A model generated the notes under the pieces. That model had not been told where the DNA came from, searched no databases, and saw only the letters and a program-made list of their open reading frames with translations. Below are positions 10,797 to 49,680 of a stretch of DNA of 55,571 nucleotides, in pieces. The first letter of the stretch is position 1. Each line of letters starts with the position of its first letter. The DNA comes from an uncultured Blautia sp. Lineage in GTDB: Bacteria > Bacillota > Clostridia > Lachnospirales > Lachnospiraceae. The position numbers were made by a program, and so were the translations under genes. The DNA lies in contig CAKRRX010000003.1 in NCBI GenBank assembly GCA_934394595.1, positions 1-55,571 of the forward strand, given 5' to 3'.

Positions 10797-13700
10797 TTAT
10801 TTAACAGTAACCTTTACTTTCTTGTACATACCGTTCTGTGCATAACAGTAAATGTAGCATTTGCCTTTCTTGATTCCTTTAATCTTACCATTCTTATCTA
10901 CTGTTGCAACCTTCTGGTTTGAAGAGATGTAACGTACATTTCTGGTATGTTTCAGGTAGTTTTTGCCTGTTGTTGTAATGGAAGCATTTACTTTATTTGT
11001 TTTGCCTTTCTTTACAGTTACTGCTTTTTTGTTGACTGTGATGGCGCTGACTGCGGCATATTTACCACCAGCTGTGGTTACATGGATATTTGCAGATTTT
11101 GCAATCCTGCCATCTTTATCATATGCAACGATAAAGTATTTATATGCTGTGTTTTTGCTAAGCTTTTTCTTTGTCCAGGATTTATAATTTCCGGAAACCT
11201 TTTTTAGAAGCTTATAGCTGTCACCACATTTAGCACCGTAAATTCTATATTCGGTAGCGCCTTTTACTTTATTCCAGGAAAGGCTGACAGATGTCTTCTT
11301 GCCCTTTGCTGTGAGCATGAGAACCGGAGCTGTCTTAGCAGCTGCAGGAGTTGGTGTAACAGTCGGCTGCGGTGTTTCTGTTGGCTGTGGTGTTACAGCT
11401 TGCTCCGGTTTCCTGGTGGGTTCCGGCTCAACTGGCTTCTGTGCTGCTTTTACTTCTAACTCAGCAATTGGTAAAACAGCATAGGCATATGGTGTCTTGG
11501 AAACATAAATCTGATACTTTCCACCCTTGTCTGCTTTGAAAGTAACGATACCGTTTTCATCTGTGATTCTTTCCACTGTCTCACCGGTTTCTGTATTCTT
11601 CAAAACGACTGTGCAGTCTTTTGCAGCATCTGATCCAGTATAACCTGCAGTCATTATGGTTACAGAAAATTCTTTTCCACTTTCAACGGAGTCTGGAGTA
11701 TTGCTGAAATATAAATATTTATCTGTTCCTTTGTTTGTATCACCATAAAGGAAAATTTCCAGTTCATCTCCGGTTTTCAATACTGTATCATTTGCAACTG
11801 TGCCGTTTCCTGCTTCATCTGTTGGAAATACATTATTTACATAATATCCAATATAAGAGGTCTGTACCCCAAATATACCGTTAAGCCACCCCTTGTTGCT
11901 GATATTCAGGTAGTCAGATGGATTCTCTTTGAATTTTTCACCATATAACGCAGCATGAAGTGCGTAAAGCGCATCCGCTACAGTTACCTGTTTTTTCATA
12001 TTCTCAGGTTTCTCATAGCCATAAGCGGCTGCATCTGTTGCTTTTACTGTAATTTTTTCATGGGTTCCAAGCTTGTTTGCATCTTTATTGATACGTACGG
12101 TAATGTCTGCTGCCATCGGAATCTGGGCATCCATTGCTGTACTTTCTGCTACTTTGAGATCCTTGATTGCTTTGTTCAGCTCTTCTTCTGTTACATTCTC
12201 TTTATTCAGAGCTTCTGTTGCTGCATCAATTGCTTTCTGAAGAGCATCCTTTGTTCCTGCCGGATACTGTCCTGCTTCTGTTCCCTCTTTCACGGAAGCA
12301 AGAAGATCTTTTGCACTCTGAATCTCTTTTTCCAGTCCATCTGTAGCAGGTTTTGTTCCTTTGATGGTTACCGTTACGGAAACAGGCTGTTTGTAGAGCT
12401 TCTGCAAAACGGTATTGTCCGGATGTTTTTCTGCTACATCTTTATAAAGCTCGCTGCTTAACACAGAAGAAATCGTAATTTCGGTATCTGTCTCTCTTCT
12501 GTTTACTACCAGATTTTCATGAGCGACTACTGCATTATTGGAAGATTTGAATTTATTATATCCTGCGCCTTCCATTTCCCATGGGTCTTTGAACTGATCG
12601 TCCGGAATAATACCTTTTCCGGATTTTTCATCACTCTTATAAATCCATTTTGCATTTCCATTTTCATCAAAAATCATTTCCTGGAATGAATGGAGATTAC
12701 CTGTGATGGAATCCTTATCTGCGTACTGATTATCATTGATACCATCAAAGTAATGTGCTTTTGCATACTCCATCATATCCAGCTGACTCTGAACTTCTGC
12801 CTCAGTAACATGCTTCACTGTAACAGGAATTTTTTTGGATACCGTTACGCCGTCACGGGTAAAGGTTATTACAAGATCTGCCGTTACATCTTCGTTGCTT
12901 GCAAAACGGTCAACCACAGCACGATAGCCGTTAATTTTGATCACATTTTCATTTTCGGAGGTTACTGTGATTTCTTTGTTATTAAATACATAGTTATTGT
13001 TTTCATCTTTGATTCTTGTATACCGTGGAAGCTGGAGATCACCCTTGCATGATTTCAGATCAACGTCTTCCTTTGTATTAGCATCTTTGATTTCGTTTTC
13101 TGTATAATATTTATTTAAAATAGCAAGCAGATCTTCTTCTGTTGGACCTGCTACACCAGTACCTTTGACGGTTACTTTAAATTCCTGGGTATAGGTTGCA
13201 AATAAGTCTGCTTTTTCACCTGAATATGAATTCAACTGAGAAGAATTTGCCTTAAATGTAGCTGTCAGGGTTACTTCTGTGTCTTTAGCCTGGGGATGGA
13301 TTTCTCCTGTCTTAGGATAAATCATGGAATCATAGGCACCATTTTTGAAACTGATCACATTTTCATCGGAAGATGTCCAGAAAATTTCCGACCATGCCGT
13401 TCTTACACTGGAAGTCATACAGCGAGGGAGAGTCAGATTGGAGGTAACCTCATCAGAAGATATATTGGAACCTTTGATCTTATCCCAGGTCAGTTCATCT
13501 TTCTCTGCCTTCATCTTATCATTAAAATAATCGCGATCCCAGCATACTGTTGCATTTCTTTCTATTGATACGGCTTTCGCACCGTTTTTCTCAAAAATGT
13601 AAGTAAGACCTACATTTGTAAAGTTTAAACCATACTGCTGAGGTGCTTCTGCTCTATAATGGATAACGCCATCTTTATCAATAACAGCAGGTGTATCGGT

Positions 13701-15677
13701 AGATTTAATGGAAACCTTCACATCTGAAGCATCTACATCTGTATATGCTCGAATTTTAGCAGTTACCATGTCCAGGATATTTTTATCTGTTGCATAATCC
13801 GGACGAAGGGCCCCCATTTCTGCATCAAATTTTGCTTTGACCGCATCAACGGTTCTCTGATCTTCTGTGTCAACCGGTTTCCTTGTCAGTGCAACAGAAA
13901 TTGTATCTGTATCCTTGGAACCATCTGGAGTATAGGTTTTTCCGGTAACATCTTCATAACCATCTGCCTTTACAGAACAGGTGTATTCTACTCCTTTCTT
14001 CATAGTGTAGGTTCCATCTGCATTGGCTTTCAGTTCCTCTGTATATGGATTCTGATAATAGGTATCATAATCTTCGTAGGTTACTTTGATTTCAGCGCCA
14101 GAAACCGGAGTATCACCATCCATTGGCTGAATGGTTACCTTACACTCAGAAATGTCAGCAGCTGTCTTTTTCATGGTTACTGGAAGATTGATGATTTCTT
14201 CTGTACCACTTGGTGTGTACTTACCGGTAGCTGGCTCATAGCCATCTGCTGTGATCGTGTAAGAATATTCGGTTCCTTTCTTCATTGCATAAGAAAAATC
14301 GGAATTTGGTTTTAAAGTAACCGTGTCATATTCCTCATAATAATCATCATATTCCTCATAAGTTACTACAATACTGGGATTTGACACAGCATTACCTGAA
14401 GAGTCTGCCGGTTTAATAAATACAGAATATTCTGTGATGTTTTTGGTAAGATTTACTGTAATGGTCGTATCTTCAGTCACATTAATTGCAACATTATATG
14501 CATCATTATAATTATGCGCACTTACCACATAATAATAAGTATTACCAGAAATCAGATTATAACTTCCATCCTCTTCTGCAGTTACACCACCAGTATCATA
14601 AACAGATTTTTTTACACGGATAGTTGCATTTTCAATTGCTTTTCCACTCGCCTTGTCTATTACGTTAAATTTTACATTACTATATGCAATTTTTTCCAGT
14701 TTAACGGTTATCTCAGTGTTTGCAACATAAGGATCTGCAGGAGTAAAGGTAAAATAGCTTTTCTTATACTCTTTATAGCCATCTTTTTGAACAGTTAAAG
14801 AATAAGTACCATTCTCTTCCATTTTATAGGATCCATCAGCTTCAGCAGTCACTGTATTTGATGAATATCCCTTTATAAGAGTAACAATTGCATTTGAAAC
14901 TGGCTGTTCATTTTCATCCACAACCTTAACAGTCATTGTATAGTCGGGCTTAGCCGGTTCCGCAGCTTTTATTACGATTGTATACTCCTGACTGGCTAAT
15001 GCAGCATTTTTTGCTAATTCCTTATCATTAATAGTGTCAACAGAAGTTCCTTTCGGAAACAAGCGAAGAGTGGCTTTAAAGCTCTGATCTCCTTGCTCTG
15101 CTGTTGGTCGATTAATAGTTAAACGTGATTGTGCTGCAGGCTTCTTTGCTTTCACTAAAGAAGAGTCCTCCAAATACCATCCGGAAGCATAAGTATCTGA
15201 AGAGCTTTCGTTTCTAAAACTTATACTTGTTATATTACTTCCATTACCATTTGTTTTTAATCCAACTGTATAAGTAAGTCCATCTGCACTTTTGGAAACA
15301 CCAGTTCCACCATTTGTAATGATTTTGACTGTAGAGCTATTAATATACTTGCTTTTCAAATATTCCGCAGCCGCAGCCTTCTCCTCATCTGTTGCGTTAG
15401 CCGAAGTTCCCATTTCTCCATCTGCGTACAGCTCCACAGCGGCATCGGTTCCATCCTCTGTGGCTACCTCTGCTCCGTCGTCTGTAAATCCCATGCCGTC
15501 GGAAAATTCCTCTGAGGTATCCCAGTTTTCCTGATTTGCATCCTCTGAAACAGCCTCAGCAGAATCTGCAAAGAAATCTGCCTCGGAAGCAAATGCAGTT
15601 GTCGGCACCATAGTGGTTATCATCATAGCAGCCATGGTGATGGACATGAGTCGTTTTGTTAATTCTTTTCTCTTCAC
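10797..15677 (-). CDS. Giant secreted surface protein with repeat, FIVAR, DUF4430-like, FN3 and Big2 domains
   Basis: This 1626-residue protein starts at GTG 15677, preceded by AAGGAGGAG. The upstream part of the open frame is the riboswitch and is not translated. A signal peptide ends near PTTAFASEA (about residue 30). In order come four tandem carboxypeptidase-regulatory/PEGA-like repeats of about 90 residues (about 244-602), long beta-rich modules, a helical FIVAR segment (about 1115-1180), a DUF4430/transcobalamin-C-like domain (about 1190-1320, with VTVADALYALHAALYG and SYIGYYVNNVFP), a Pro/Thr linker, FN3 (about 1449-1536) and Big2 (1539-1626). No LPXTG or membrane anchor is seen. The riboswitch upstream implies expression under B12 limitation. 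A role in B12 capture is inferred. Confidence 0.88.
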   Translation of the reverse strand: MKRKELTKRLMSITMAAMMITTMVPTTAFASEADFFADSAEAVSEDANQENWDTSEEFSDGMGFTDDGAEVATEDGTDAAVELYADGEMGTSANATDEEKAAAAEYLKSKYINSSTVKIITNGGTGVSKSADGLTYTVGLKTNGNGSNITSISFRNESSSDTYASGWYLEDSSLVKAKKPAAQSRLTINRPTAEQGDQSFKATLRLFPKGTSVDTINDKELAKNAALASQEYTIVIKAAEPAKPDYTMTVKVVDENEQPVSNAIVTLIKGYSSNTVTAEADGSYKMEENGTYSLTVQKDGYKEYKKSYFTFTPADPYVANTEITVKLEKIAYSNVKFNVIDKASGKAIENATIRVKKSVYDTGGVTAEEDGSYNLISGNTYYYVVSAHNYNDAYNVAINVTEDTTITVNLTKNITEYSVFIKPADSSGNAVSNPSIVVTYEEYDDYYEEYDTVTLKPNSDFSYAMKKGTEYSYTITADGYEPATGKYTPSGTEEIINLPVTMKKTAADISECKVTIQPMDGDTPVSGAEIKVTYEDYDTYYQNPYTEELKANADGTYTMKKGVEYTCSVKADGYEDVTGKTYTPDGSKDTDTISVALTRKPVDTEDQRTVDAVKAKFDAEMGALRPDYATDKNILDMVTAKIRAYTDVDASDVKVSIKSTDTPAVIDKDGVIHYRAEAPQQYGLNFTNVGLTYIFEKNGAKAVSIERNATVCWDRDYFNDKMKAEKDELTWDKIKGSNISSDEVTSNLTLPRCMTSSVRTAWSEIFWTSSDENVISFKNGAYDSMIYPKTGEIHPQAKDTEVTLTATFKANSSQLNSYSGEKADLFATYTQEFKVTVKGTGVAGPTEEDLLAILNKYYTENEIKDANTKEDVDLKSCKGDLQLPRYTRIKDENNNYVFNNKEITVTSENENVIKINGYRAVVDRFASNEDVTADLVITFTRDGVTVSKKIPVTVKHVTEAEVQSQLDMMEYAKAHYFDGINDNQYADKDSITGNLHSFQEMIFDENGNAKWIYKSDEKSGKGIIPDDQFKDPWEMEGAGYNKFKSSNNAVVAHENLVVNRRETDTEITISSVLSSELYKDVAEKHPDNTVLQKLYKQPVSVTVTIKGTKPATDGLEKEIQSAKDLLASVKEGTEAGQYPAGTKDALQKAIDAATEALNKENVTEEELNKAIKDLKVAESTAMDAQIPMAADITVRINKDANKLGTHEKITVKATDAAAYGYEKPENMKKQVTVADALYALHAALYGEKFKENPSDYLNISNKGWLNGIFGVQTSYIGYYVNNVFPTDEAGNGTVANDTVLKTGDELEIFLYGDTNKGTDKYLYFSNTPDSVESGKEFSVTIMTAGYTGSDAAKDCTVVLKNTETGETVERITDENGIVTFKADKGGKYQIYVSKTPYAYAVLPIAELEVKAAQKPVEPEPTRKPEQAVTPQPTETPQPTVTPTPAAAKTAPVLMLTAKGKKTSVSLSWNKVKGATEYRIYGAKCGDSYKLLKKVSGNYKSWTKKKLSKNTAYKYFIVAYDKDGRIAKSANIHVTTAGGKYAAVSAITVNKKAVTVKKGKTNKVNASITTTGKNYLKHTRNVRYISSNQKVATVDKNGKIKGIKKGKCYIYCYAQNGMYKKVKVTVK

Positions 15678-15712
15678 GTTGCTCCTCCTTTTAAAAAAAA
15701 TATTTTTGGCAA

Positions 15713-15749
15713 ACAAAAACAGAGCCTCATTGTCCACATGAGCCTCTGT
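15713..15749 (-). terminator. Riboswitch-controlled terminator, copy 2
   Basis: The minus strand reads ACAGAGGCTCAT, a 7-nt loop, ATGAGGCTCTGT and TTTTTG. The 12-bp stem has one internal G-G mismatch and lies between the aptamer and the ribosome site. It is nearly identical to the hairpin at 33044-33080. Confidence 0.85.
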
Positions 15750-15876
15750 CCTATACAACGCGTTGGATATACTGACTCGAAACGTCTCAACACGTCTCAC
15801 ACAGCAAAAAGCAGTTCCGGAATTTCACCGGATTTCCTTAAACCGACCCCTAAAAGATCCGACCACGTCTGGTTTT
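15750..15876 (-). promoter_or_regulatory. Cobalamin riboswitch aptamer, copy 2
   Basis: The minus-strand leader contains the cobalamin-riboswitch core: AAGGAAATCCGGTGAAATTC followed by CGGAACTG, then GCTGTGTGAGACG, then a B12-box-like AGTCAG...CC. Rfam-type B12 aptamers share GGAA-n-GGTGaaAnTCC-n-ACTG and AGYCAG. The canonical CCCGC is replaced by a T-rich stretch, so this is a divergent member. The downstream terminator implies an OFF switch: B12 bound, transcription stops. The same element lies at 33081-33225. Confidence 0.8.
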
Positions 15877-15889
15877 TCTGTTTGATACG

Positions 15890-15918
15890 ATTATAGCATC
15901 ATAAAAAATATCTGTCAA
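15890..15918 (-). promoter_or_regulatory. Consensus sigma-A promoter for riboswitch copy 2
   Basis: Perfect TTGACA, 17 bp, perfect TATAAT on the minus strand. The TGA inside the -35 box is the stop codon of the upstream beta-propeller gene. The giant surface gene can therefore be transcribed independently of the upstream operon. Confidence 0.92.
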
Positions 15919-18900
15919 TTTTTAACTTTCACAGTTACAACAAAGCGTTTCTTCCCGGATTTCACCGTAATCTTTGCAGTTCCTTTTTTCCTGGCAGTTA
16001 TCACACCTTTTAAGGTTACCGATGCCACTTTTTTGTTGGAAGAAGTGTAGTTTACTTTTTCCTGAGAAGTAAAGGGTGTGATCGTTGGCTTCAAAGTATA
16101 TTTCTTACCCCTTTTCAGAGTTATCTTGGATTTCAGGCCTGTGATCTTCTCTGTTTTTACTGCTGTTTTCTGAACGATCACGTTAATGGTCTGCTTTTTG
16201 TTGCTGGCAAGAGTTATGGTGACCTTTGCTTTTCCGGCTTTTAACCCTTTGATGGTTCCTTTCTTACTTACGGAAACTACTTTTCGATTGCTGGAAGTCC
16301 AGCTTTTTATGGAGTCCCCATTGGCAAGACCGGTTACCTTTAGTTTGGAGGTAGACTGTTTTACTTTCAGCTTGACAGTTTTTGCATTCACCTTTATGGT
16401 CGGTGCAAGCTTGCTTCCTACGGTACGTGTTTCTGTGCGTCCTTTGTTGCTGCTGCGCTGCTGTTTTTCAGGTACAAATACTGTAGCTTGTGATACCGTT
16501 TTCCATGGGCCGAACACCTCAGGAATTTGCGTAGGTGTGGGAGTCGGTGTTGCCGTAGGTGTGGGAGAAAGCGTATCCGTCCGCTGTATCACAAGGATAT
16601 ACTCCGTCTTCTTCCCGGATTTTGCAGTTACGGTAAGTTTTACTTTTGCTTCTGCTAAAGGTTTACCAGGATCAAAATACATGGCAATCCTGTGTGCATT
16701 CCCACTTCCTGTCACTTTTCCAAGTACTACTACCTTACCGGTTCCGCTGATTCCCTCAGCAGTAACTGTAGCAGTACTGTCTGACAGTTCCGCAAAAATA
16801 TTCAGAAATTCCCTGGTTCCTTTATAGATCACCCGGTAGCTGGTTGCTGCACTGTTAAAGGCCGGGGAAATCTCCAGATGATTTGCCACATTGGAATAGG
16901 TATTGCTGGTACTTACCACCATATTTTCAAAAACAGGTACCGAACGGTCCCAGGCAAGATGGAATAAATAGGATCTGCTCTTGCCAGCTGCATTCACATT
17001 TACTGTCACATCTGCGGAACCGGAGCTTGTATCCACAGTATAAGTACCAGTACAGGACTGACCATTTACAGTCATGGTGCATCCAGTCGGTGCTTTCAGT
17101 GTAAAGGTCACTTTTTGGGCATTTTCCGGAATTTTCAGCTTATACTCTAAAGTATCCTTCCGAAATGCAGACGGCCAGGTAACAGCTCCGCCATCTGAAA
17201 TTGCGCTGACACTGTCCAGGTATGCACCATTTGTCTCCAGCGCCATCAGATAATTGGAATCATTTTTATAATAAAGGGTTCCATCTTTATCTACGCAGAT
17301 CGTACTGATACAATATTGCTGCTGGTTCGCTGCAGGGCGGAAAAGCTCTACTGCCTTTCCGGATGTACGTCCCGGCGCATCCTCCAGCATATAAATTCCT
17401 CCGGGAAGAGAATTGTAGGTAAAGTACAGATAAACTCTTCCATCTGCCACACCATCCCCGTCAAAATCCTGATTTTCATAAGCAGTGGAAAGAAGGGGCG
17501 CTGCCTGGGGGTAACCGGGGATTGCTACAGAATAAGCTTTTGTGATGCCAGAATCAGATTCATTCAGTACATCGAAATGATGGCCTCCATCGGAGCTGAA
17601 CTGGCCTCCGCTTCCGGCTACACCAATATAAATCCTGCCTTTGTATACCACCGGGGAGCCTGTTGACATTCCTCCCAGGTTATAACCAGTCACATTTCCA
17701 AATGTGCCGTCTGCATTCATATGGACACGGTACAGATAACCTCCTTTAGTAGTAAAATAAGCATAACCATTGTTATAAACTACAGTGGAGCGGATGTCTC
17801 CAATCAGACCGGTAAGCTTATCCAGAAGCATTCCGGTATGGGTATTGACAGAATACAAAATGGAGGGATTGGAATTGATCTTTTCGCCGTTTTTATCTGC
17901 AACCCCATTATCCGACCCGAATACAAGATAGTCACCGGATACGTAAGCTCCAGCCCAATAAAATCCGCCTTTGTGATTGTATTTCCAGGTACAGTATTTG
18001 ACCTCATCCCCTCTTGCAGGATCCTCATCTGTCACTGACAGGCAGAAATATGTGCCTGCGGTTGTCTTGGAATTCCAGGTACCGGTATAAAGATATCCAT
18101 CCTTATAAGTAATGGGAGAAATAGTTTGTCCTCCAACAGATTCACTGATCCAGAGAGAGTTCAGGCTTGTGGCACTGATTGCCTGGATCTGGCCTCCTCC
18201 GATCTGTGCAAAAAGCATTCCTTCCCCATAGCACAGAGGATTCATGGCATACTCCATACCGCCTTTTAACTGCTCACTTCTGGCAATGATCTCTCCTGAG
18301 TTTTTGTCAAGCTTATAGATAAACTGTCCGGATGCCACATAAATAGTTCCTCCCAGGATCAGCGGCGGTGTTACAGATGCCTCCACGCCAACTCCGATTT
18401 GTTTCGCCCATTTTTGTACTGTGGCATTGGGATCTGTAGGTGTCTGGGTGTCAGTAAGGCCATTATTATTCTCGCTGTTGCGGAAACTGATCCACTCATT
18501 ATCTGTAAGCTCAGTCTGTTTGGCATCCTGTTTTTTCAGGGTCACTGTGATTTCTGACTGCTGTCCTCCTGTAAAGCTGCCCTGTGCGGAAATATAACCA
18601 TATCTGGAAACATTCCAGCTGTAGGTTTCTCCCTGGAGAATACTGTCATAAATCCGCCAGGAACTGCCAGAAGAAGAGAGACGATTCCCGTCTGCCCCAT
18701 AGACACTGATCACTGCATCATCAGGAGTTACCTGAAATGTTACAGTGGCATTTGACTGTTTATGGATGGTAATAGTGTAAGTTCCCTGTGAAGTGTAATT
18801 CTGTGTCTCATATGCCGGATCTGCATATGTATTTTCTTCTTCCATAAAAAAAGTGATCACGGTATCCCCAGTCTGAGACAACATAATATCTGTGGCTGGA

Positions 18901-19847: not shown

Positions 19848-19895
19848 AGTGTGCCTCCTTCTCTTAGAATGTATTTGAAAAACAATTACATTGTT

Positions 19896-23078: not shown

Positions 23079-23102
23079 AAAATTATTCCTATTTCACCGA
23101 AT

Positions 23103-25421: not shown

Positions 25422-26515
25422 GTAATGGTTTCTCCTTGATCTGGTGTGCCGGACATGCCGCAGCACACAACCGTTACTTCCCCTCTGTCTTTCAAAGGCT
25501 GAACGTCCTCTCCGGGATTCCCTGTAAGATAAATATAATTTGCAAAATTCTGAGGTCCCGGATTTTTCAAATATTCCTGCACCACTTTGCAGTGACTGTT
25601 TCCCCCTTGTCTGAGAAAGAGATACAACATCGTTTCACAATCCTGAGCCGTGGTGATTTTCTGCATATGGATCTGTCCGGATACAGCGTCTGTCACCCCT
25701 GCCTGACAGGAAATCCTCTGTTCCAAAAAGCTGTGTAAAACAGCACTGAAAACTTCTGCAAGTGTCTGGGAAACTCCCGGATCTTTTTTATTCAGAAAAC
25801 TGTCAGCCAGTATGAGAACCGTATCGTCCACCGGAAAGCTTTTTTCCCGGATCATCATACTGTCCAGCTTGCCGGAAAGCTTCCAGTGAATCTGACGGAT
25901 GCTGTCTCCATCCTGATATTCCCTGATATCAAAGGTCTCTCCCGGATCCTCCCCCGGACGGCTTCCCGAATACCGAAAGCTCTCCATATCAAAGCCTTCT
26001 CTGGTAAGGAAGGCAAAATCCTGTTTCTGTTCTGGTGGCATGATCACGGTGCAGCCCTTTTCTTCCAGTTTTTTCTTTCTGGACAGAATTCCAAAAAAAT
26101 CACTGCATTTCCATTCTGCCACCCAAAAGTTGATGCATCCACACCAGCTGCTCACAGCCTGAAACTCTATTTCCTCTTTTCCTTTGCTGCCAAGAGAAAA
26201 AGAAAAAGGAATTTTCCCGGTCTCCCCGGTATAACTGTTTTTCCAGAAAATATATCCCTTTCCAAGAAATACCGGCAGAACCGACTGATTTTTCACTATC
26301 AGTTTTCCTTTGAAAGTACTGGCCTGCTCTGCTGCCTTTGGAAGAAAAAAAGAAGCTGTTGTCTTTTTTCCGCAAAATGCTCCCAGAATCAGGGAGCCTG
26401 CTGCAACAATAAAAAAAATCAAGAGGACAGCTACAAAGATCCATGAGCCTGTAAACACTGCTGCCAGTGCCATGCACAACAGCCATAAAATCCATAAAAT
26501 CCTGTTTTTCATCAT
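25340..26515 (-). CDS. DUF58 domain protein
   Basis: This protein has 391 residues. Two membrane helices at the N-terminus (ILWILWLLCMALAAVFTGSW and the next) are followed by a beta domain and the DUF58 core (FDIREYQDGDSIRQIHWKLS, then MMIREKSFPVDDTVLILADS). The latter resembles a von Willebrand A fold. DUF58 proteins accompany MoxR ATPases and may be chaperoned by them. It overlaps the moxR-like stop by 4 bp (ATGA) and the next gene by 82 bp, so the three genes are translationally linked. Confidence 0.92.
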   Translation of the reverse strand: MMKNRILWILWLLCMALAAVFTGSWIFVAVLLIFFIVAAGSLILGAFCGKKTTASFFLPKAAEQASTFKGKLIVKNQSVLPVFLGKGYIFWKNSYTGETGKIPFSFSLGSKGKEEIEFQAVSSWCGCINFWVAEWKCSDFFGILSRKKKLEEKGCTVIMPPEQKQDFAFLTREGFDMESFRYSGSRPGEDPGETFDIREYQDGDSIRQIHWKLSGKLDSMMIREKSFPVDDTVLILADSFLNKKDPGVSQTLAEVFSAVLHSFLEQRISCQAGVTDAVSGQIHMQKITTAQDCETMLYLFLRQGGNSHCKVVQEYLKNPGPQNFANYIYLTGNPGEDVQPLKDRGEVTVVCCGMSGTPDQGETITWKFGSQKKNKQEKDTDSCPVCFWKLH

Positions 26516-27447
26516 CCCTCAACCTTTGGCAACGGTACCTTGGCCAGAATTTCCTCCAGAACCTTTCTGGCGCTTAATTCTTCATATCTTGCACGGGGAT
26601 CCAGAATCATACGATGCGCCGACACATCCAGAAATACCTTCTGTATATCCTCAGGCACCACATAGTCCCGATCCTCCATAAATGCGGCAGCCTTTGTCAT
26701 ACGACATAATGCCAGCGTACCTCTTGGACTCAGGCCAAGAGAGATCATAGGATGATTTCTTGTAGCCTCTGCCAGAGTAGCAATATATTCCAAGATGGAA
26801 TCTGCCATATAAACCTTTTGCACCTGTTTTTGCAGTTCCAGTACTTCTTCCTTTGAAATGACCGCAATGGCTTTTTCCAGAGGATTCTCCTGCTGACGGT
26901 CGCGAAGCAGTTCCACCAAAGCGTCATGGTCCGGATATCCCATGGAAAGGCTGACCATAAAACGGTCCAGCTGAGATTCCGGCAGCATCTGGGTACCGGA
27001 AGAACCTGTTGGGTTTTCTGTGGCAATGACCACAAAGGGCTGGGGGACCAGATGAGTTTCCTGATCTACTGTAACCTTTCCCTCTTCCATAACTTCCAGT
27101 AGGGCTGACTGGGTTTTGCTGGAAGTACGGTTGATCTCATCTGCCAGAAGCATATTGCACATCACAGCTCCAGGGCGGTAGAGAAATTTTCCACTTCCCT
27201 TATCATACATGGTAAAACCTGTCACATCAGAAGGAACCACATCCGGCGTAAACTGGATCCGGTTAAAATCCATTCCCATCAACCGGCAAAGAGCCAGAGC
27301 TGTTGTGGTTTTTCCCACTCCCGGGACATCCTCAAGAAGAACGTGTCCCCTCGCAAGGACTGCCATGATGATCTTATCTGTAGTTTCCTTTTTTCCTTTT
27401 ATGATAGTTCCAAGCTCCCTCTGGAGCTGTCTGATCTTATCTGCCAA
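26512..27447 (-). CDS. MoxR-type AAA+ ATPase
   Basis: This protein has 311 residues. It shows Walker A (VLLEDVPGVGKTTTAL), Walker B (MLLADEINR), sensor 1 (FVVIATENPTGSSGT), an arginine finger region (LPESQLDRFMVSLSMGYP), and the lid domain typical of MoxR/RavA proteins. MoxR ATPases act as chaperones for partner vWA or DUF58 proteins; here DUF58 is directly downstream with a 4-bp overlap. The start codon is TTG at 27447, supported by AGGAGG nine bases before it. It lies 29 bp after the toroid lipoprotein, within the cobalamin-regulated operon. Confidence 0.94.
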   Translation of the reverse strand: MADKIRQLQRELGTIIKGKKETTDKIIMAVLARGHVLLEDVPGVGKTTTALALCRLMGMDFNRIQFTPDVVPSDVTGFTMYDKGSGKFLYRPGAVMCNMLLADEINRTSSKTQSALLEVMEEGKVTVDQETHLVPQPFVVIATENPTGSSGTQMLPESQLDRFMVSLSMGYPDHDALVELLRDRQQENPLEKAIAVISKEEVLELQKQVQKVYMADSILEYIATLAEATRNHPMISLGLSPRGTLALCRMTKAAAFMEDRDYVVPEDIQKVFLDVSAHRMILDPRARYEELSARKVLEEILAKVPLPKVEG

Positions 27448-27476
27448 TTTGTGTAGCCTCCTGTTTTTATCCGGCT

Positions 27477-28475
27477 TTAATCCGTCATGTCATAAAAAGC
27501 GGATTTTCCATTTTTGAATCTCTGGTATGCCACCAGTGCACAAAACCCCTGATCCGTTGCCATAGGATCTGCCTCTCCATCTGTCAGATGGGAAAAGCTG
27601 CCATCCTTCTGGTAAAAATCCATCAGTACGTCATAAAGCCCTTTTCCATTCTTCTGAAAACGTTCATCTGTTTCGCAGTCAATCCCGTAGGTGCTTAGGG
27701 TTAGGATTACCTGGGAAATGGATTCTGAACTTTTGTCTCCATAGGAAACATAACCTCCGTCTTTATCCTGGGCATCTGCAAGGACTTTAATTCCTTTTTC
27801 AATCACTTCTTTTACCTGTTTTTCATCCTGATAGGCAGCAAGGCTCTGTAACGCCATTGCGGTGATATCCACATCAGCCAGTTCTGCGCTGTCATCCAGG
27901 GAAAAGCCCCCGTCTGGCTTCTCCTGTTCCAGTATATAGGCCAGATATTTCTGTTCCAGTTCTCCATTTGGGTCTGCCTGATCTGCATTTAATGCCAAAA
28001 GGGCAAATACAGCACCATTTATTCCCTGTGCAGTCACAGCTTCATAATCTTCCAGCGGTGCCTGAATATCAAAGCCGCCAATATCTGTGGGATCCTCCCC
28101 GATGGCTTTTGCAGCCAGCACTGCGCGGGAATACTCGGTATAGCGGTTTTCACTTAAAATCCCATTCTGTTCTTTTAACCTTTTTTCCAGATTTGCCCTG
28201 TATTTTTCGAAATAATCATCTTCTGCCTTTTCCCCGGATCTGGCGAGAGGAATCACCACCCACTCTCCACCAAGGGAGTCTGATACAGGAGCTGTCACAG
28301 TTTGTTGCTCATACTGGGCTGTTTTGGTCACTGCTGTAGTCAGATCGGGCTTTTTGTCTCCACAACCGCTTAAGGTACAAAGGGAAAACACAGCCATAGC
28401 CATACCCATAGCATATCTGAGTGCTACTGTTTTTGTCATATTTTTATCAATCGTATGCATCTTTTTAATAAGCAT
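27477..28475 (-). CDS. Lipoprotein with alpha/alpha-toroid (intrinsic factor / terpene cyclase-like) domain
   Basis: This protein has 332 residues. It starts at an ATG after AAGGAA; the longer frame has no ribosome site. The N-terminus carries a lipobox, LSGC, for diacylglycerol attachment. The body is made of helical repeats with Gly-rich turns (KPDGGFSLDDSAELADVDIT, KDGGYVSYGDKSSESIS, KDGSFSHLTDGEADPMAT) followed by LALQSLAAY-type helices. This is the alpha/alpha toroid of prenyltransferases, terpene cyclases, and the N-terminal domain of intrinsic factor/transcobalamin. The catalytic DxDD or QW patterns of cyclases are not evident. Position directly after the ECF S component, under a cobalamin riboswitch, favours a B12-binding role (inference). 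Confidence 0.85.
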   Translation of the reverse strand: MLIKKMHTIDKNMTKTVALRYAMGMAMAVFSLCTLSGCGDKKPDLTTAVTKTAQYEQQTVTAPVSDSLGGEWVVIPLARSGEKAEDDYFEKYRANLEKRLKEQNGILSENRYTEYSRAVLAAKAIGEDPTDIGGFDIQAPLEDYEAVTAQGINGAVFALLALNADQADPNGELEQKYLAYILEQEKPDGGFSLDDSAELADVDITAMALQSLAAYQDEKQVKEVIEKGIKVLADAQDKDGGYVSYGDKSSESISQVILTLSTYGIDCETDERFQKNGKGLYDVLMDFYQKDGSFSHLTDGEADPMATDQGFCALVAYQRFKNGKSAFYDMTD

Positions 28476-28514
28476 AAATTCCTTTCTGCGTCTTTCCATA
28501 AAAACACGATTTCC

Positions 28515-29423
28515 TCATTCCACAGGCTGGATCAGACCATATTTTACCTTGATTCGCTCCAGTTTTTCCAGAAGAGGCCTGCTTAAAAGCCAAAGAAAGA
28601 TTACCGTAGAAATGGCATGTACCAAATCTACCGGAGCTCCTGAAATATAGTAGGCAAGGAGAGTGCTTTTTGTAATATAACCATAGGACATCAGGATGCT
28701 CGCCGGATTCATAATTCCGCCGTATATGAGAAAAACGCTTAAAAATCCATAGATACAAAGTTCTGCTTTCCGGGCTTTCAAAATTCCCTTCTGGTACAGG
28801 ATTCCCGCCAGAAAGCCAATCATCCCAAAAGCAAACATCTGCCAGGGAGTCCAGGGTCCCTGCCCCATAAACATATTGGAAACCAGCATGGTAAGGCTTC
28901 CCACCAGAAAACCGGCTTCTCCACCAAAGGACACTCCTGAGAGAATCACCAGTGCTGCAACCGGCTTAAAACTTGGAACCATGAAAAAAGCGGCTCTTCC
29001 TGCCACACCAAGTGCGGAAAGCACGGCGATCACCATGATTTCCCGAGCCTTTGGCCTGCGTCCTTCGAACATCATAAAGAAGGGAAGCATAGCTGTTATC
29101 ACCACGATCAGGCTGCACAGGAGGTATTTGCGGCCGCTCCATATCTTCACGGAGAAAAAAAGGAGCAACGGCACCAGGATCAGCATGAGCCCCAGAGCAA
29201 ACCAGGTACGGGAACTGACTTTTCCCTTTCGTTCCAGCTGCTGTATGATCAGGCCATCGGAAGGAAGGGCATACTCTTTTAGCTCATCCTCTGGAGAGAT
29301 TCTTTTTTTTAGGATTTTTTTACTTTTGGATATGTTTTCTGTCTTTTCTGAAACAGGTTCCGAAGAGTTTTCCTCTGAAAAAAAATCATCCAGAAACTGA
29401 TCTAGCTTTTGCTCTGTAAGCAT
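28515..29423 (-). CDS. ECF transporter S component, CbrT-like (predicted cobalamin)
   Basis: This protein has 302 residues. A charged cytoplasmic N-terminal extension of about 70 residues is followed by about seven membrane helices. Landmarks are VLSALGVAGRAAFFMVP, FKPVAALVILSG and GQGPWTPWQMFAFG, which I associate with the S components often found under B12 riboswitches (CbrT family). S components bind the vitamin and join the EcfAA'T energising module. It overlaps the ATPase gene by 22 bp and precedes the toroid lipoprotein. Cobalamin as substrate rests on the riboswitch and family resemblance; cobinamide or another corrinoid is possible. The long N-terminal tail is unusual. Confidence 0.88.
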   Translation of the reverse strand: MLTEQKLDQFLDDFFSEENSSEPVSEKTENISKSKKILKKRISPEDELKEYALPSDGLIIQQLERKGKVSSRTWFALGLMLILVPLLLFFSVKIWSGRKYLLCSLIVVITAMLPFFMMFEGRRPKAREIMVIAVLSALGVAGRAAFFMVPSFKPVAALVILSGVSFGGEAGFLVGSLTMLVSNMFMGQGPWTPWQMFAFGMIGFLAGILYQKGILKARKAELCIYGFLSVFLIYGGIMNPASILMSYGYITKSTLLAYYISGAPVDLVHAISTVIFLWLLSRPLLEKLERIKVKYGLIQPVE

Positions 29424-31129
29424 GCGACCACATCCCTTCCGGTGACAGCATCGGGAAACATCTGTCTTGCCATTCTGTTTGCTGCTGTTGTATAAAAATT
29501 ATTTCCGGCAAAAAATTCCCGTGTATTTTTGCTGGTAGCCACACTGCCTTCAAAAAAAAGGCCTGTGGTATCTGCATATTCTGCTACAAATTCCACATCA
29601 TGGGAAATGATAAAGATGGTCATGCCATGGGCCTGAAGTTTTTTCAAAATTTTTCCAAGCTCTTCTTTATACTCAGCATCCATTCCTTTTGTAGGCTCAT
29701 CCATCAGCAGAAGCTTCGGACGCAGAAGAAGTACTTTTGCAAGAGCCAGGCGCTGCTGCTCGCCTCCGCTAAGATCGTAGGGATGTCTGTGGAGCAGTCC
29801 GTCCAGACGAGTAAGGCTTACGATTCCTTCTATTGCCTGTTCCTTTTTCATCTGAAGGGGATACTCTGGGGATAGCTTTTCCTTTTTTCCGCCGATCACA
29901 GAATATAAATCCTCCAGAACTGTCTTTCTCAGAAAAATACTCTGGGGATTCTGAGGCATTACCCCAAGATAACCACAATACAGTTCCTTGTCCTTAAAAG
30001 AACGGATATCTCTTCCATCCAGATAAATCCTGCCTCTGTACGGCTGGTTCACACGGCTCAGCAAAGACAATGTGGTACTTTTTCCTGTACCATTTCCACC
30101 TACCAGAGCATAGAATTCTCCTTTTTTTACCTGAAGGGACAGATCCCTGACCACATCCGGGCTATCCTTTTCATAACGAAACCATACATCCTTCATCATA
30201 ATAGCGCAAGGCTGCTTTTCCCGATGAAAAAAGCCAGTGGAACTGTTATAGGTGTTCTCTTCTTTTTTCATATCCTGTTTTTGGGGAAGAATTCCCTTTT
30301 TCCCGGCATAAAGTTCCAGCCACCTGCGTCCTTCACTGACTGTTAGGGGACATCTTTCTTTACTATCTGTCTCTGCATAAATCTGCATCGGCACAGGCAT
30401 GGACAAAAACATACTGTGTTTTTCCCTTCCCAGATTTTCGCCGATTTCCCGGGGCGTTCCTTCCAGAAATACAGTACCCTGATCCATTACAAACACTTTG
30501 TCTGCATAAGGAATGATATCCTGGAGGCGATGTTCTGTGAGAATCACAGTAGTACCAATATCCCTGTTGATTTTTTTGACGGTTTCAAGAAAATCAGATG
30601 CTGCAATAGGATCCAGCTGAGAGGTAGGCTCATCCAGAATCAGAAGGGAGGGATGCATCGCCATTACAGATGCAAGATTCAGAAGCTGTTTCTGCCCTCC
30701 TGACAGCTCTGATACATTTTTATAAAACCACTGGTGGATACCAAAATAGCTGGCCATTTCTGCCACACGAAGACGAATGGTGGAATTGTCACAGCCAAGG
30801 CTTTCCAGGCCAAAAGCCAGTTCATGCCAGACCTTGTCTGTTACGATCTGGTTGTCCGGGTTCTGCATCACAAAACCAATTTCCTGACTCTGTGTCCGGT
30901 GGTCGATCTCATCCAGGGATTTCCCACGGTATAAAATATGGCCTTCTGCTTTTCCGGCAGGAGACAATACTGTCTTCAGCTGTCTTAACAGAGTACTTTT
31001 TCCGCAACCACTTCTGCCACATATTACATTTAAGGTTCCCTCCTGGATATTCAGATTTACATGCTCCAGGACTTTTTGGGAACTATCCGGATAGGCAAAG
31101 CCAAAATTATTTATCTCAATTATATTCAT
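29402..31129 (-). CDS. Fused ECF ATPase EcfA-EcfA'
   Basis: This 575-residue protein holds two full ABC domains. Domain 1 (about 1-235) has Walker A GRSGCGKST, signature LSGGQKQ and Walker B LLILDEPTSQLD. Domain 2 (about 310-545) has GGNGTGKST, LSGGEQQR and LLLMDEPTKGMD. It energises vitamin uptake with EcfT and the S component. Most Firmicutes encode the two ATPases separately, so the fusion marks a dedicated (group I) system. The start overlaps the ecfT stop by 4 bp. Confidence 0.95.
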   Translation of the reverse strand: MNIIEINNFGFAYPDSSQKVLEHVNLNIQEGTLNVICGRSGCGKSTLLRQLKTVLSPAGKAEGHILYRGKSLDEIDHRTQSQEIGFVMQNPDNQIVTDKVWHELAFGLESLGCDNSTIRLRVAEMASYFGIHQWFYKNVSELSGGQKQLLNLASVMAMHPSLLILDEPTSQLDPIAASDFLETVKKINRDIGTTVILTEHRLQDIIPYADKVFVMDQGTVFLEGTPREIGENLGREKHSMFLSMPVPMQIYAETDSKERCPLTVSEGRRWLELYAGKKGILPQKQDMKKEENTYNSSTGFFHREKQPCAIMMKDVWFRYEKDSPDVVRDLSLQVKKGEFYALVGGNGTGKSTTLSLLSRVNQPYRGRIYLDGRDIRSFKDKELYCGYLGVMPQNPQSIFLRKTVLEDLYSVIGGKKEKLSPEYPLQMKKEQAIEGIVSLTRLDGLLHRHPYDLSGGEQQRLALAKVLLLRPKLLLMDEPTKGMDAEYKEELGKILKKLQAHGMTIFIISHDVEFVAEYADTTGLFFEGSVATSKNTREFFAGNNFYTTAANRMARQMFPDAVTGRDVVACLQSKS

Positions 31130-32112
31130 AAACCCTGTAATTCCTCATAAATTTTCCGGTAGGTAATGTCTGTGCTGCATTCTATTTTTCTTTTACTTCT
31201 TCGAAAACGGATCTGCTCTGTCAATTCCAGAAGCACCGGAAGAAAACAAAAGATACCAAAACACAGATAAGTACCCAGAAGCATTCCATGGGAAAGGGTT
31301 CCGGGAGCTTTGTAGCCCTGGATCACAAACCCGGCAATGATAATTCTGGGATTGTAGTTTGCATAAGCTGCCCCACTTAAACAGCCTGCTCCAAATCCAC
31401 CACATAAAACCAGCATAATTGCACCAAGCAATCTGTCCCTTGCAGTAAAGCGATAAACAGAAAATGCCTTCCGCCCTCTAAGTCCGTAACCTCTGCTTCT
31501 CATAGAATCGGAGGTCTCAATGGCATTTTCCAAGGCCCAGGTGATCAAAACGGAGAGCATGTTCAGACCATGGCGAATACGTGCCAGAACATTCCCTTCT
31601 GAAATGTCCCTTCCCATTCCTTTTTGTCCATTTCGGATCACCTTTAACTGTCTCAGAAACCTTGGCACAAAGCGCAATGCCATAGACAGTATCAGTGATA
31701 AAACCGGAATCAGGCGTCCAAACAGATAAATGAATTTATCTGTAGTCATCACCTTATTGTAACAGGCAAACCACTGTATCACTATGAACATCACAGCTCC
31801 AAGAACTGCTCCATATACAAGAGCTTCAAGGGTGATCCAGTTTCCGCTGCTTTCAACATAATATAGCATGGTAACGCCATAATGGTTGAACAGCGGATTC
31901 ATCAAGGTCACAGCCAGAAGTCCGGGCAGAGTAAACAAAAAGCTTTGCTTTAAAGTCTTTGACCTGCCGTTTAGCACTATGGAATATGAAAGCGCACCAA
32001 GATAAGAAAGCCCGATCCACAGCGGGTGTTGTTCAAACATGGTAAACAGCAGCACCACGGCAAAGTAAAAAAAGTTCAGCAGAGGATGACATCTGGAAAA
32101 TGCATCTGCCAT
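31126..32112 (-). CDS. ECF transporter transmembrane component EcfT
   Basis: This protein has 328 residues from ATG 32112, which follows GGAAGGGG; an upstream ATG at 32160 lies inside the LRR gene and lacks a site. Several membrane helices and the coupling region are visible: ALRFVPRFLRQLKVIRNGQK and SDSMRSRGYGLRGRKAFS. The latter holds the small-residue/Arg motif that docks onto the ATPases. It scaffolds the S component and EcfAA'. It is followed by the fused ATPase with a 4-bp overlap and preceded by the LRR gene with a 22-bp gap. Confidence 0.93.
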   Translation of the reverse strand: MADAFSRCHPLLNFFYFAVVLLFTMFEQHPLWIGLSYLGALSYSIVLNGRSKTLKQSFLFTLPGLLAVTLMNPLFNHYGVTMLYYVESSGNWITLEALVYGAVLGAVMFIVIQWFACYNKVMTTDKFIYLFGRLIPVLSLILSMALRFVPRFLRQLKVIRNGQKGMGRDISEGNVLARIRHGLNMLSVLITWALENAIETSDSMRSRGYGLRGRKAFSVYRFTARDRLLGAIMLVLCGGFGAGCLSGAAYANYNPRIIIAGFVIQGYKAPGTLSHGMLLGTYLCFGIFCFLPVLLELTEQIRFRRSKRKIECSTDITYRKIYEELQGL

Positions 32113-32134
32113 ATTTTCCCCTTCCTGATACACT

Positions 32135-33013
32135 TTACCGACTGACGACTTGTCTCTCACTGATATACTCCCTCTTTAATCCATATTCCTCACAATAGGC
32201 ATCCATCTTACTGCCCTTATAGCAGCCGATGGTACAGCTTTTATTTACGATCCAGGGACCTATATGCTGTGGGTCATGACAGACTTCCAGATATTCCAGC
32301 CTGCTGCATCCATGGAATACCCATCTGCCTATATAGGATACACTCTCCGGAATGGAAACTCTTCTCAGATTCTTGCAACGGAAAAAGGCACTGTCTCCAA
32401 GTATTTCCAGGCCTTCCGGAAGTTCCAGGGTCTCAAGTCCGCAAAAATAGAAAGCTTCTTCCCCAATCTCTTTCATTGTCTTTGGAAATTCAAACTGTTT
32501 CAGCTCCTTACAGCGATAAAAAGCCCTTTTCTGGATGACCTCTGCTCCCAGTGGAAGGGTCACTTCATTTAGCCGCACGCAGGAATCAAATATTTCTTCT
32601 GGAATTTCCCTGCATGGGGACTGGGGATTAAAACAGACTTTTCTTAAATTGTTGCATTCTCTGTAGCACTGAACCCCTAATTTTTCCAGGGAAGCCGGGA
32701 AAATTGCCTGTCTGAGATTATGGTTTTCTGCAAATGCTCTTTTCTTGATCTCCGATAACGTCTCCGGAAAGCGGATCTGCTTGCGAAACTGACATCCTTC
32801 AAATGCCTGCTTTCCAATGATCCGGCATCTTGAAGGAAGAATCACTTCTTTTATTTTTCCATTTCCCATAAAGCATTTATCATCAATAAATATATATTCC
32901 TGCGGAATCTTTCTGACCAGTTCTCCCTCCTGTTCTCTTGCTCGCTGTGCAGTATAAGTACGACTGTCAAAACGAAGTGTTTTCCAGCCTGTTTTTTCCT
33001 TGTGTAAATACAT
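32135..33013 (-). CDS. BspA-type leucine-rich repeat protein (cytoplasmic)
   Basis: This protein has 292 residues, starting at ATG 33013 ten bases after AAGGAGA. At least seven LRR_5 repeats of about 23 residues fill residues 45-270, with units like IGKQAFEGCQF, IQKRAFYRCKEL, IGEEAFYFCGL and LGDSAFFRCKNL. No signal peptide, membrane helix or anchor is seen, so it is probably intracellular, unlike most BspA-like proteins. It is the first gene after the cobalamin riboswitch and leads the ECF operon. The function is unknown; a protein-protein scaffold is the simplest guess. Confidence 0.88.
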   Translation of the reverse strand: MYLHKEKTGWKTLRFDSRTYTAQRAREQEGELVRKIPQEYIFIDDKCFMGNGKIKEVILPSRCRIIGKQAFEGCQFRKQIRFPETLSEIKKRAFAENHNLRQAIFPASLEKLGVQCYRECNNLRKVCFNPQSPCREIPEEIFDSCVRLNEVTLPLGAEVIQKRAFYRCKELKQFEFPKTMKEIGEEAFYFCGLETLELPEGLEILGDSAFFRCKNLRRVSIPESVSYIGRWVFHGCSRLEYLEVCHDPQHIGPWIVNKSCTIGCYKGSKMDAYCEEYGLKREYISERQVVSR

Positions 33014-33043
33014 AGTTTGTCTTTCTCCTTGGTTTTTAAGCAA

Positions 33044-33080
33044 CAAAAACAGAGCCTCATTGTATACATGAGCCTCCGTC
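33044..33080 (-). terminator. Riboswitch-controlled terminator, copy 1
   Basis: The minus strand reads ACGGAGGCTCAT, a 7-nt loop, ATGAGGCTCTGT and TTTTTG. It shares the same G-G mismatch and stem as the hairpin at 15713-15749 and ends 30 bp before the LRR gene. Confidence 0.85.
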
Positions 33081-33225
33081 CTCTATGCAACGCGTTGGAT
33101 TGCTGACTTAAAACGATTCCGCAAATGTCCCTGATGGACAAATCGTCTCATACAGAAAAACAGTTCCGGATTCTCACCGGATTTCCTTAAATTGATCCTG
33201 GCGGATCAAACCACGCCTGGTTATT
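33081..33225 (-). promoter_or_regulatory. Cobalamin riboswitch aptamer, copy 1
   Basis: The minus-strand leader contains TTAAGGAAATCCGGTGAGAA, TCCGGAACTG, CTGTATGAGACG and AGTCAGCAATCC, in the order of the B12 aptamer. Compared with copy 2 it carries an extra variable stem (GTCC...GGAC). With the terminator downstream it should switch off the ECF operon when adenosylcobalamin or another cobalamin is bound. The family call is by motif recognition. Confidence 0.82.
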
Positions 33226-33263
33226 CAATTGTGTAATTGCAGTTCTATATATCTGCTGTCACA

Positions 33264-33292
33264 ATTATAACAGTTTGGCCATTTACTGTCAA
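33264..33292 (-). promoter_or_regulatory. Consensus sigma-A promoter of the cobalamin operon
   Basis: Perfect TTGACA, 17 bp and perfect TATAAT on the minus strand, about 30 bp before the aptamer. An imperfect palindrome TTGGC...GCCAA (33275-33302) brackets the -35. Confidence 0.95.
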
Positions 33293-33322
33293 TAATAGCC
33301 AAATTCTTTCCGTCATTTTCTG

Positions 33323-33856
33323 TCATTTTTCAGAAGAATCCGCTTCCTGGTAAGGATTTCCTATATCAGAGCCCAGATCACAGGTGTAGATCCAACAGAT
33401 CTGATCCCCGGCTTCCGGCTTATACTCTGAACAGCCTTTATTTGGAAATTTGTCATTGACGCTGTACATCCAGCCGGAATTTTTCCCACAGTCAAATTCG
33501 TACAGCTGATTGATTCCCTCTACGTAGTAGCTTTTATACAGAGGAGTGTACCTGGATGAAAGCTGGATGCCCTGCTCCTGACATACTTTTTTCAGAATAT
33601 CAAAAACCGTATCACCTGTTGTAAAGGTTATCTCCACAGGCTTCAGGACCCATCCGTCCTCAGGAACAAACTCTGTCTTACTTTCTTTTAACTGATCCAT
33701 GTTTGCAAGGATTGCCGAGCTGTCAATGGAAATCGTACAGACAGCCTGTTCTCCACCAGGTTCTTTCCCACAGCCAGAAAGGGCAAGGACAAAGATCAGA
33801 TTCAGGAAAAGAAAGAGGTTCCGATACTTTAGAACCACTTTTGTTATCACATTCAT
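33323..33856 (-). CDS. Lipoprotein consisting of a DUF4430 (transcobalamin-C-like) domain
   Basis: This protein has 177 residues. A signal peptide with lipobox LSGC (about residues 26-29) is followed by a single DUF4430 domain: DTVFDILKKVCQEQGIQLSS, YYVEGINQLYEF, SGWMYSVNDKFPNKGCSEY, then a C-terminal IYTCDLGSDIG. The same GWMYSVN and GSDIG elements occur in the protein at 21705-23078. DUF4430 is the fold of the cobalamin-covering beta domain of transcobalamin. The ATG directly follows the eutP-like stop (TAAATG). The gene is upstream of the riboswitch promoter and so is not controlled by it directly. A function in corrinoid capture for the microcompartment pathway is inferred. Confidence 0.88.
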   Translation of the reverse strand: MNVITKVVLKYRNLFLFLNLIFVLALSGCGKEPGGEQAVCTISIDSSAILANMDQLKESKTEFVPEDGWVLKPVEITFTTGDTVFDILKKVCQEQGIQLSSRYTPLYKSYYVEGINQLYEFDCGKNSGWMYSVNDKFPNKGCSEYKPEAGDQICWIYTCDLGSDIGNPYQEADSSEK

Positions 33857-34387: not shown

Positions 34388-34410
34388 TGATCTTCCTTAT
34401 CTGTATCACT

Positions 34411-34839: not shown

Positions 34840-34850
34840 GGATACACTTC

Positions 34851-45190: not shown

Positions 45191-45196
45191 CTGTTA

Positions 45197-46945: not shown

Positions 46946-47071
46946 CTTGCTTCTCCTCGTCTATTTCCATAACTCTTCCAGAGCTTTTCCCTGATACTCC
47001 CTGCAAGCTGCACACACTTTCTCCCGGAATTATTCCCGGGCTGGCTGTGGCAGCCTCTGCAGTCCCCGTTT

Positions 47072-48778: not shown

Positions 48779-48783
48779 AGTAT

Positions 48784-49551: not shown

Positions 49552-49645
49552 TTGTTTTCTCCCTCTTAACAAAAATCTATGCAGAATCAAAAACCAGCTT
49601 TCAAAGTGAAAAAAAGGCTTTTGAACCCTGACACCATATAAAGCT

Positions 49646-49674: not shown

Positions 49675-49680
49675 TACTAA

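Follow-up and report, generated by a model that had tools for sequence, protein, structure and literature searches.

How vitamin B12 is captured outside the membrane in Gram-positive bacteria is poorly described, and the locus treated here raises the question of whether a Blautia genome encodes a surface machinery of this kind. The window, by which we mean the whole 55,571-nucleotide (nt) stretch analysed (contig CAKRRX010000003.1 of an uncultured Blautia sp.), contains a run of minus-strand genes from 33,013 to 15,915 in which neighbours overlap or lie no more than 48 nt apart, from the gene for an LRR_5 protein through that for a protein with a likely beta-propeller. These genes are one operon. 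In order, they encode the LRR_5 protein, the EcfT, EcfAA' and S component of an energy-coupling factor (ECF) importer, an alpha/alpha-toroid lipoprotein, MoxR, DUF58 and transglutaminase-fold proteins, a membrane-anchored DUF4430 protein, a Pro/Thr-rich protein and a cadherin-like/Big_2 protein. A further surface protein of 1,626 residues (10797-15677) follows the operon, behind a second leader. Our reading, to which we assign a probability of roughly three in four, is that the locus captures and imports B12, and that split parts resembling animal intrinsic factor close on one corrinoid and pass it to a CbrT-related importer. Every protein, riboswitch and promoter described below for positions 10797 to 33856 is on the minus strand.

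The importer and the intrinsic-factor folds

The substrate of the importer is indicated by its S component (28515-29423), which has a 123-residue N-terminal extension and, over residues 124-297, matches 6fnp_A with an E-value of 6.1e-14. This is its single match among Protein Data Bank (PDB) sequences at E-values up to 10, and 6FNP is ECF-CbrT, described as a cobalamin importer of Lactobacillus delbrueckii (PMC5997447). The S component also exceeds the cut-offs of two broad Pfam families, one for riboflavin-type S components and one for those of ECF importers in general (PF07155 and PF12822; 43.0 and 37.7 bits), and it falls far under those of the NCBIfam models for riboflavin and folate S components (26.3 versus 99 and 26.1 versus 60 bits, respectively). 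EcfT and two ATPase domains share its operon. The EcfT (CbiQ-like) transmembrane subunit (31126-32160) scores 24.5 bits against PF02361, 0.5 bit under the cut-off of 25, and the EcfAA' double ATPase (29402-31129) matches PF00005 in two stretches (E 3.5e-61). The dedicated ECF importer and the CbrT-like S component of the original prediction are both borne out by these matches. SEED may also have a role name for an extra lipoprotein belonging to a cobalamin ECF transporter of this sort.

Both folds of the intrinsic-factor family are present in the window, the toroid by Pfam and by model and the DUF4430 fold by Pfam. The toroid lipoprotein (27477-28499) matches the Prenyltrans family PF00432 (E 6e-8), has an LSGC lipobox and gives an AlphaFold2 model with a mean confidence (pLDDT) of 92.4, in agreement with its earlier annotation. 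Two proteins pass the curated cut-off of PF14478 (23.8 bits), the DUF4430 family, which resembles the C-terminal part of transcobalamin. One is a lipoprotein (33323-33856; E 4.4e-22, 78.7 bits) that carries the same LSGC lipobox as the toroid protein, and the other is a protein with an N-terminal hydrophobic segment as its membrane anchor and a C-terminal DUF4430 (21705-23078; E 1.7e-8, 35.2 bits). A profile built from DUF4430 domains of related loci also scores this pair strongly, which is no independent proof because the domains were gathered using those two proteins. As had been proposed, toroid and DUF4430 are encoded by separate genes with predicted membrane-anchored products.

The separate parts of the window occur as a single chain elsewhere. 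Of the 79 related loci (defined below), 28 encode toroid and DUF4430 in one fused protein, and 20 of these contain a toroid ahead of a DUF4430 domain. One such fusion was modelled (pLDDT 92.1), and transcobalamin, haptocorrin and intrinsic factor take Foldseek ranks 1-15, with E-values of 9e-9 to 4e-7 over 450-480 columns that span both domains. In locus L021 a single 1,507-residue open reading frame (ORF; L021:6392-10912) has the order DUF4430-toroid-DUF4430-toroid, with SLH domains ahead of the second toroid.

Riboswitches and conserved linkage

Two likely cobalamin riboswitches accompany these genes. Riboswitch 2 (33077-33230) precedes the main operon and matches RF00174 with 17.4 bits (E 3.2; gathering score 31.5), and riboswitch 1 (15714-15864) matches the adenosylcobalamin (AdoCbl) family RF01482 with 32.4 bits (E 0.038; gathering score 50); these matches appear only at a lax Rfam threshold. 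Each riboswitch starts 26 or 34 nt past a perfect sigma-70 promoter (TTGACA, 17 nt, TATAAT). The site for the main operon (33264-33292) also has a TG before the -10 element, and both it and the site for riboswitch 1 (15890-15918) agree with the consensus at 12 of 12 positions; overall, sites that resemble promoters are not commoner here than in shuffled sequence.

Both leaders align over their full length with elements that occupy the corresponding position in L001, L002, L003 and L004, four loci of the Blautia type. The alignment of six sequences has 42 consensus pairs, with 95.5% of cells paired, and 8 pairs are changed on both sides, a number reached by none of 500 shuffles. A second measure, further pair types, does not exceed shuffles; two core helices are invariant and so uninformative either way, and a slid control favours the leader structure because the structure came from the same alignment. 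The counterpart of riboswitch 2 in L003 (4583-4718) passes the RF00174 cut-off (32.3 versus 31.5 bits). That in L001, identified by its coordinates, reaches 28.5 bits in a genome-wide search and stays under it, and the L002 and L004 elements are not over the Rfam cut-off either. A conserved hairpin with a T run closes each window leader, at about 15714-15753 for riboswitch 1 and at 33044-33083 for riboswitch 2, where it shows compensatory changes in the six sequences and is the likely expression platform. A simple terminator scan does not return these hairpins, whose stem has one unpaired position; their natural reading would be an off-switch by termination. The perfect promoters, the covariation with the four Blautia-type loci and the L003 element over the cut-off together make the two riboswitches of the original prediction credible, although neither reaches its gathering score.

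In related loci the link to cobalamin riboswitches is stronger. Among 7,997 candidates scored, 2,003 toroid relatives were found at E-values up to 0.001, and the best of 492 relatives yielded 79 distinct loci, designated by L numbers, whose genes were labelled by phmmer with the window proteins (E up to 1e-4). Because of this best-of-492 choice, of close kin among the loci as judged by gene maps and identities (e.g., L005/L006, L035/L036 and L020/L040) and of contig ends that cut some loci, counts out of 79 are neither independent nor complete. RF00174 was searched against 37 genomes of 38 loci (L013 was left out); 36 genomes have a match, over the cut-off in 35. Inside the loci lie 23 matches, in 20 of 37 loci, as against 0.96 expected at random, and 22 of them, in 19 loci, are over the cut-off (the L044 match is under it). 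Seventeen of the 23 lie 67-571 nt ahead of an ORF for a toroid, a DUF4430 protein or a fusion (in L015, a propeller-DUF4430 ORF), four are separated by 1.4-5.7 kb from the labelled ORF that comes next, and two overlap the mechanical start of an ORF. The matches were placed by locating 40 stretches: 37 from genome-wide matches (one, in G006, spans several), chosen for coordinates suggesting a locus or as contrasts, and three long upstream stretches (G005, G009 and G010). Direct cmscan of 23 loci, which alone covered opposite-strand matches, gave 15 cobalamin riboswitches of up to 143 bits, every one of them on the strand of the operon. Positives by direct scan were 1/7 in an unselected set, 7/7 in loci chosen for known hits and 4/9 in further unselected loci.

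The gene content is likewise conserved. The 79 loci span Blautia, Oscillospiraceae, Clostridium, Romboutsia, Tissierella, Christensenella and Paenibacillus. On the toroid strand, DUF4430 is found in 75/79 loci (it is missing in L009, L022, L048 and L072), EcfT and EcfA in 61/79 each and both together in 58/79, and the S component in 55/79, EcfA and S component being one ORF in 34 loci. DUF4430 follows the toroid within 400 nt in 53/79 loci, at a median gap of 16 nt. Loci of the Blautia and Oscillospiraceae types order their modules differently, so the genes do not stay together simply by inheriting a single layout. An even draw of 150 genomes from the family to which the Blautia genome of L004 belongs includes 27 with the toroid at E-values up to 1e-20. 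The original prediction had called for a survey of toroid, DUF4430, EcfS and B12 riboswitch co-occurrence, and what it reveals is a module that recurs across Firmicutes, with cobalamin riboswitches in many loci.

Surface proteins and neighbouring genes

The large surface proteins expected in this region are encoded at 19896-21704, 15915-19847 and 10797-15677. The first is Pro/Thr-rich, with an N-terminal signal and a C-terminal membrane anchor (CarbopepD_reg_2 matches under its cut-off). The second is a secreted cadherin-like/Big_2 protein (PF12733, PF02368) with a likely beta-propeller at about residues 294-872. Here PQQ_2 scores 18.5 bits versus a cut-off of 27.6, which relatives in L038 and L005 pass (44.0 and 41.7 bits). 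Relatives of the propeller-like region occur in 13 loci; the one in L015 forms a fusion with DUF4430 and SLH, and the one in L038 shares a 2,911-residue ORF with DUF4430, toroid and SLH. Against PDB sequences the window propeller gives short and weak matches, with no BtuG up to an E-value of 0.1. The third protein is secreted and contains three CarboxypepD_reg domains together with FIVAR-like and Big_2 domains; its residues 552-1124 match an L039 ORF (E 3e-90) that also holds DUF4430 and toroid. Through these fusions in L015/L038 and L039, both large window proteins are tied to the binding parts elsewhere.

This third protein had also been taken for a DUF4430 protein together with 21705-23078, and only the latter assignment stands. 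The domain is marginal in 10797-15677, near 11,780-11,980: the whole protein has no match at an E-value of 0.01, the fragment 11568-12170 of the gene scores 15.2 bits versus the cut-off of 23.8 (E 0.031), and the profile of DUF4430 domains from related loci finds nothing in it. A similar ORF in L029 (E 4e-5) does carry DUF4430, outside the matching stretch.

Dockerin domains were seen in some relatives. One, over the cut-off, is in the propeller protein of L005, an Oscillospiraceae-type locus (L005:5336-9886), and weaker ones, under the cut-off, are in L112, upstream of the L005 protein, and in L016; cohesin-like stretches were seen by eye only. These domains hint at a dockerin-held scaffold in the Oscillospiraceae version of the locus.

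Between the toroid and the membrane-anchored DUF4430 gene lie three genes that the original prediction left unnamed although they fall within the region it claimed (10797-33302). They encode a MoxR-type AAA ATPase (26512-27447; PF07726, E 2.9e-54), a DUF58 protein (25340-26515; PF01882, E 2.4e-6) and a TgpA-like membrane protein with a transglutaminase fold (23103-25466; PF01841, E 1.7e-21; PF11992, E 5.3e-12), and all three occur together in 11/79 loci. Transglutaminases work by a Cys-His-Asp triad. In the window protein the catalytic Cys position is occupied by Ser, and in all 13 aligned proteins, the window's included, it is Ser, Asp or Glu; that of L001 has a Cys one residue before this position. 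The His is lost as well in the eight proteins outside the Blautia type. This pattern suggests that the transglutaminase-fold protein of B12 loci may be a pseudo-enzyme.

The first operon gene encodes a BspA-type LRR_5 protein (32135-33013; PF13306, E 1.1e-53) with no apparent signal peptide, and among the 79 loci it is present in L001-L004 only. Upstream of the riboswitch 2 leader, the DUF4430 lipoprotein gene, which is the strongest DUF4430 match and falls outside the region first claimed, is itself directly preceded by genes for EutP/PduV and two EutS-like bacterial microcompartment shell proteins (33857-35216). The latter have the same directly upstream placement in L001 and L003, and no further microcompartment genes were seen among their scanned neighbours. 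B12-dependent microcompartments would fit with this neighbourhood. Further away are a secreted protein of 743 residues whose LPXTG-type anchor scores weakly (36381-38612; 13.9 bits versus a cut-off of 20), upstream of a zinc carboxypeptidase, and a signal-peptidase-like ORF with several small secreted ORFs that have AWF/AWY motifs after the signal (44576-53159), by eye a reminder of SipW/TasA-type matrix genes.

Alternatives, known systems and meaning

Taken together, these parts suggest the following course. Under corrinoid shortage, the riboswitches would let transcription continue into the genes behind them, which would then be expressed. The toroid lipoprotein, with either the DUF4430 lipoprotein or the membrane-anchored DUF4430 protein, would clamp B12 as in intrinsic factor and hand it to the S component, for ATP-driven import by EcfT and EcfAA' by analogy with ECF-CbrT. 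Presenting the binding parts across the cell wall would be the task of the large surface proteins, one of which likely contains a beta-propeller. More speculatively, MoxR, DUF58 and the Cys-less transglutaminase-fold protein might serve assembly and not crosslinking.

Several observations weigh against this reading. The standalone toroid has class II terpene cyclases as its best structural matches: these head the Foldseek ranking of the model, with transcobalamin (2v3n) at rank 8 (E 8e-4), and the 50 rows that VIA-align shows include neither transcobalamin nor intrinsic factor. The toroid matches PF00432 and PF13243, and at E-values up to 0.01 it has no match to PF01122, which we take to be the animal intrinsic factor/transcobalamin family. 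The toroid fold does not diagnose B12 binding, and we do not use it as proof: its matches to terpene cyclases, epimerases and hydrolases are equally good or better. Searches of PDB sequences with the DUF4430 profile found no transcobalamin, and a single DUF4430 sequence found no match. A superposition on intrinsic factor, proposed in the original prediction and run on the fused relative, matches both domains but not their arrangement: the apo model superposes domain by domain only, with an overall root-mean-square deviation of about 20 Å, so that a closed clamp is not predicted. At the level of the locus, the Rfam scan of the window returned no riboswitch at the gathering score. The DUF4430 lipoprotein gene lies upstream of riboswitch 2 and so is not behind it. 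Elsewhere its relatives directly follow the toroid gene, and the fetched L001 and L003 loci, in which no counterpart was seen, keep only the membrane-anchored DUF4430. Two Blautia loci, L002 and L004, keep the riboswitch-like leader and the LRR, DUF4430, toroid, MoxR, DUF58 and transglutaminase-fold genes, but the 21 kb fetched for them contain no ECF genes. Finally, some hosts may make corrinoids themselves. CbiD is a marker of anaerobic corrin synthesis, and it was found in 12 of 37 genomes, the four of the Blautia type included.

This last point bears on the alternative that survives best, which retains the mechanism above and changes its ligand from B12 itself to either a corrinoid precursor or one specific cobamide (cobinamide, or a form with a non-cobalamin base), salvaged by organisms able to produce part of the cofactor. 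CbrT is described as transporting cobinamide too (PMC5997447), and in Blautia the system may serve salvage or the uptake of a preferred cobamide. However, CbiD was not found in the other 25 of the 37 genomes (genome completeness is not given), so many hosts probably depend on uptake of a complete corrinoid. As a general account we consider a special ligand possible but unlikely.

Less probable still is that B12 concerns the ECF importer alone as a ligand, and that toroid, DUF4430 and surface proteins do not bind it but make up a complex for adhesion or in the wall, regulated by B12 and sharing nothing with the importer but the promoter. The Big_2, CarboxypepD_reg and cadherin-like domains of the surface proteins are typical of adhesins, L002 and L004 have the surface genes without nearby ECF genes, and we know of no B12 role for MoxR, DUF58 or transglutaminase-fold genes. 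Against such a complex stands the company that the toroid keeps: despite rearranged gene order, it stays with DUF4430 and EcfT in 61/79 loci across Clostridia, Tissierella, Paenibacillus and Christensenella, and the fusions recreate the domain pair of intrinsic factor.

That the toroid is a squalene-cyclase/prenyltransferase-type enzyme, with DUF4430 binding its lipid or another soluble ligand, is very improbable: its sequence and fold do rank nearest to drimenyl diphosphate synthase and squalene-hopene cyclase, and Asp211 is invariant in 38/38 aligned relatives, but the fourth position of the DXDD catalytic motif is Ile, Leu or Met in all 38, and the protein occurs as a secreted lipoprotein or in SLH-anchored form, linked to riboswitches and a CbrT-like S component.

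The B12-capture reading is thus well supported by the toroid, DUF4430, the CbrT-like S component, the likely riboswitches and the fusions; its novelty is not supported. The original prediction knew of no described Gram-positive equivalent, yet Burroughs, Balaji, Iyer and Aravind predicted such a system in 2007 (PMC1796856). In the portions of that paper available to us, they describe bacterial toroid-SLBB fusions in both orders, with a DUF4430-type beta-grasp and a surface location, report operons with CbiO/CbiQ, mention a FIVAR and a beta-propeller fusion, and predict B12 scavenging at the Gram-positive surface. At its core the original prediction is thus sound, but others had put the idea forward earlier. 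The same text does not contain riboswitches, MoxR, transglutaminase or dockerin, and it predates the CbrT structure. As far as we have searched, what is added here is the split double-lipoprotein form, likely riboswitch control and the link to a CbrT-type S component, together with the recurrent likely beta-propeller partner and the association of MoxR/DUF58 with a Cys-less transglutaminase-fold protein. We found no experimental follow-up of the 2007 prediction, B12 binding included, in the literature searched, which left subscription papers mostly outside.

Three further systems invite comparison. Animal intrinsic factor, transcobalamin and haptocorrin likewise consist of a toroid and a DUF4430-type domain, and the fused bacterial relative matches both, whereas the window has them as separate chains and its toroid, lacking a PF01122 match, is nearer to terpene cyclases. 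DUF4430 is also mentioned in work on teleost transcobalamins (PMC4350170). The L. delbrueckii ECF-CbrT has a homologous S component (E 6e-14) but a shared ECF module for several S components, and no extracellular binder is named in the available text of PMC5997447; the window's ECF genes, in contrast, share one operon with surface proteins. The BtuB/BtuG/BtuH machinery of Bacteroides (PMC6143338, PMC10404256, PMC8941943, PMC6977713), as far as described there, also uses riboswitch-linked surface proteins that capture B12, and BtuG is a beta-propeller, a fold that the window's partner protein likely has too; here the binding folds differ and there is no outer membrane.

Beyond this locus, we tentatively suggest, at somewhat less than even odds, that Gram-positive bacteria possess a modular, riboswitch-controlled kit for corrinoid capture, in which toroid, transcobalamin-type beta-grasp and propeller are, depending on the lineage, split, fused or held by SLH or dockerin-type domains, MoxR/DUF58 and a pseudo-transglutaminase take care of assembly, and a CbrT-type importer is the exit. 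The intrinsic factor and transcobalamin of animals would have branched off from this kit. The window offers clonable single-domain parts of the presumed clamp together with an importer, and so allows direct tests of what was predicted in 2007 and of the proposal that intrinsic factor came from bacteria.

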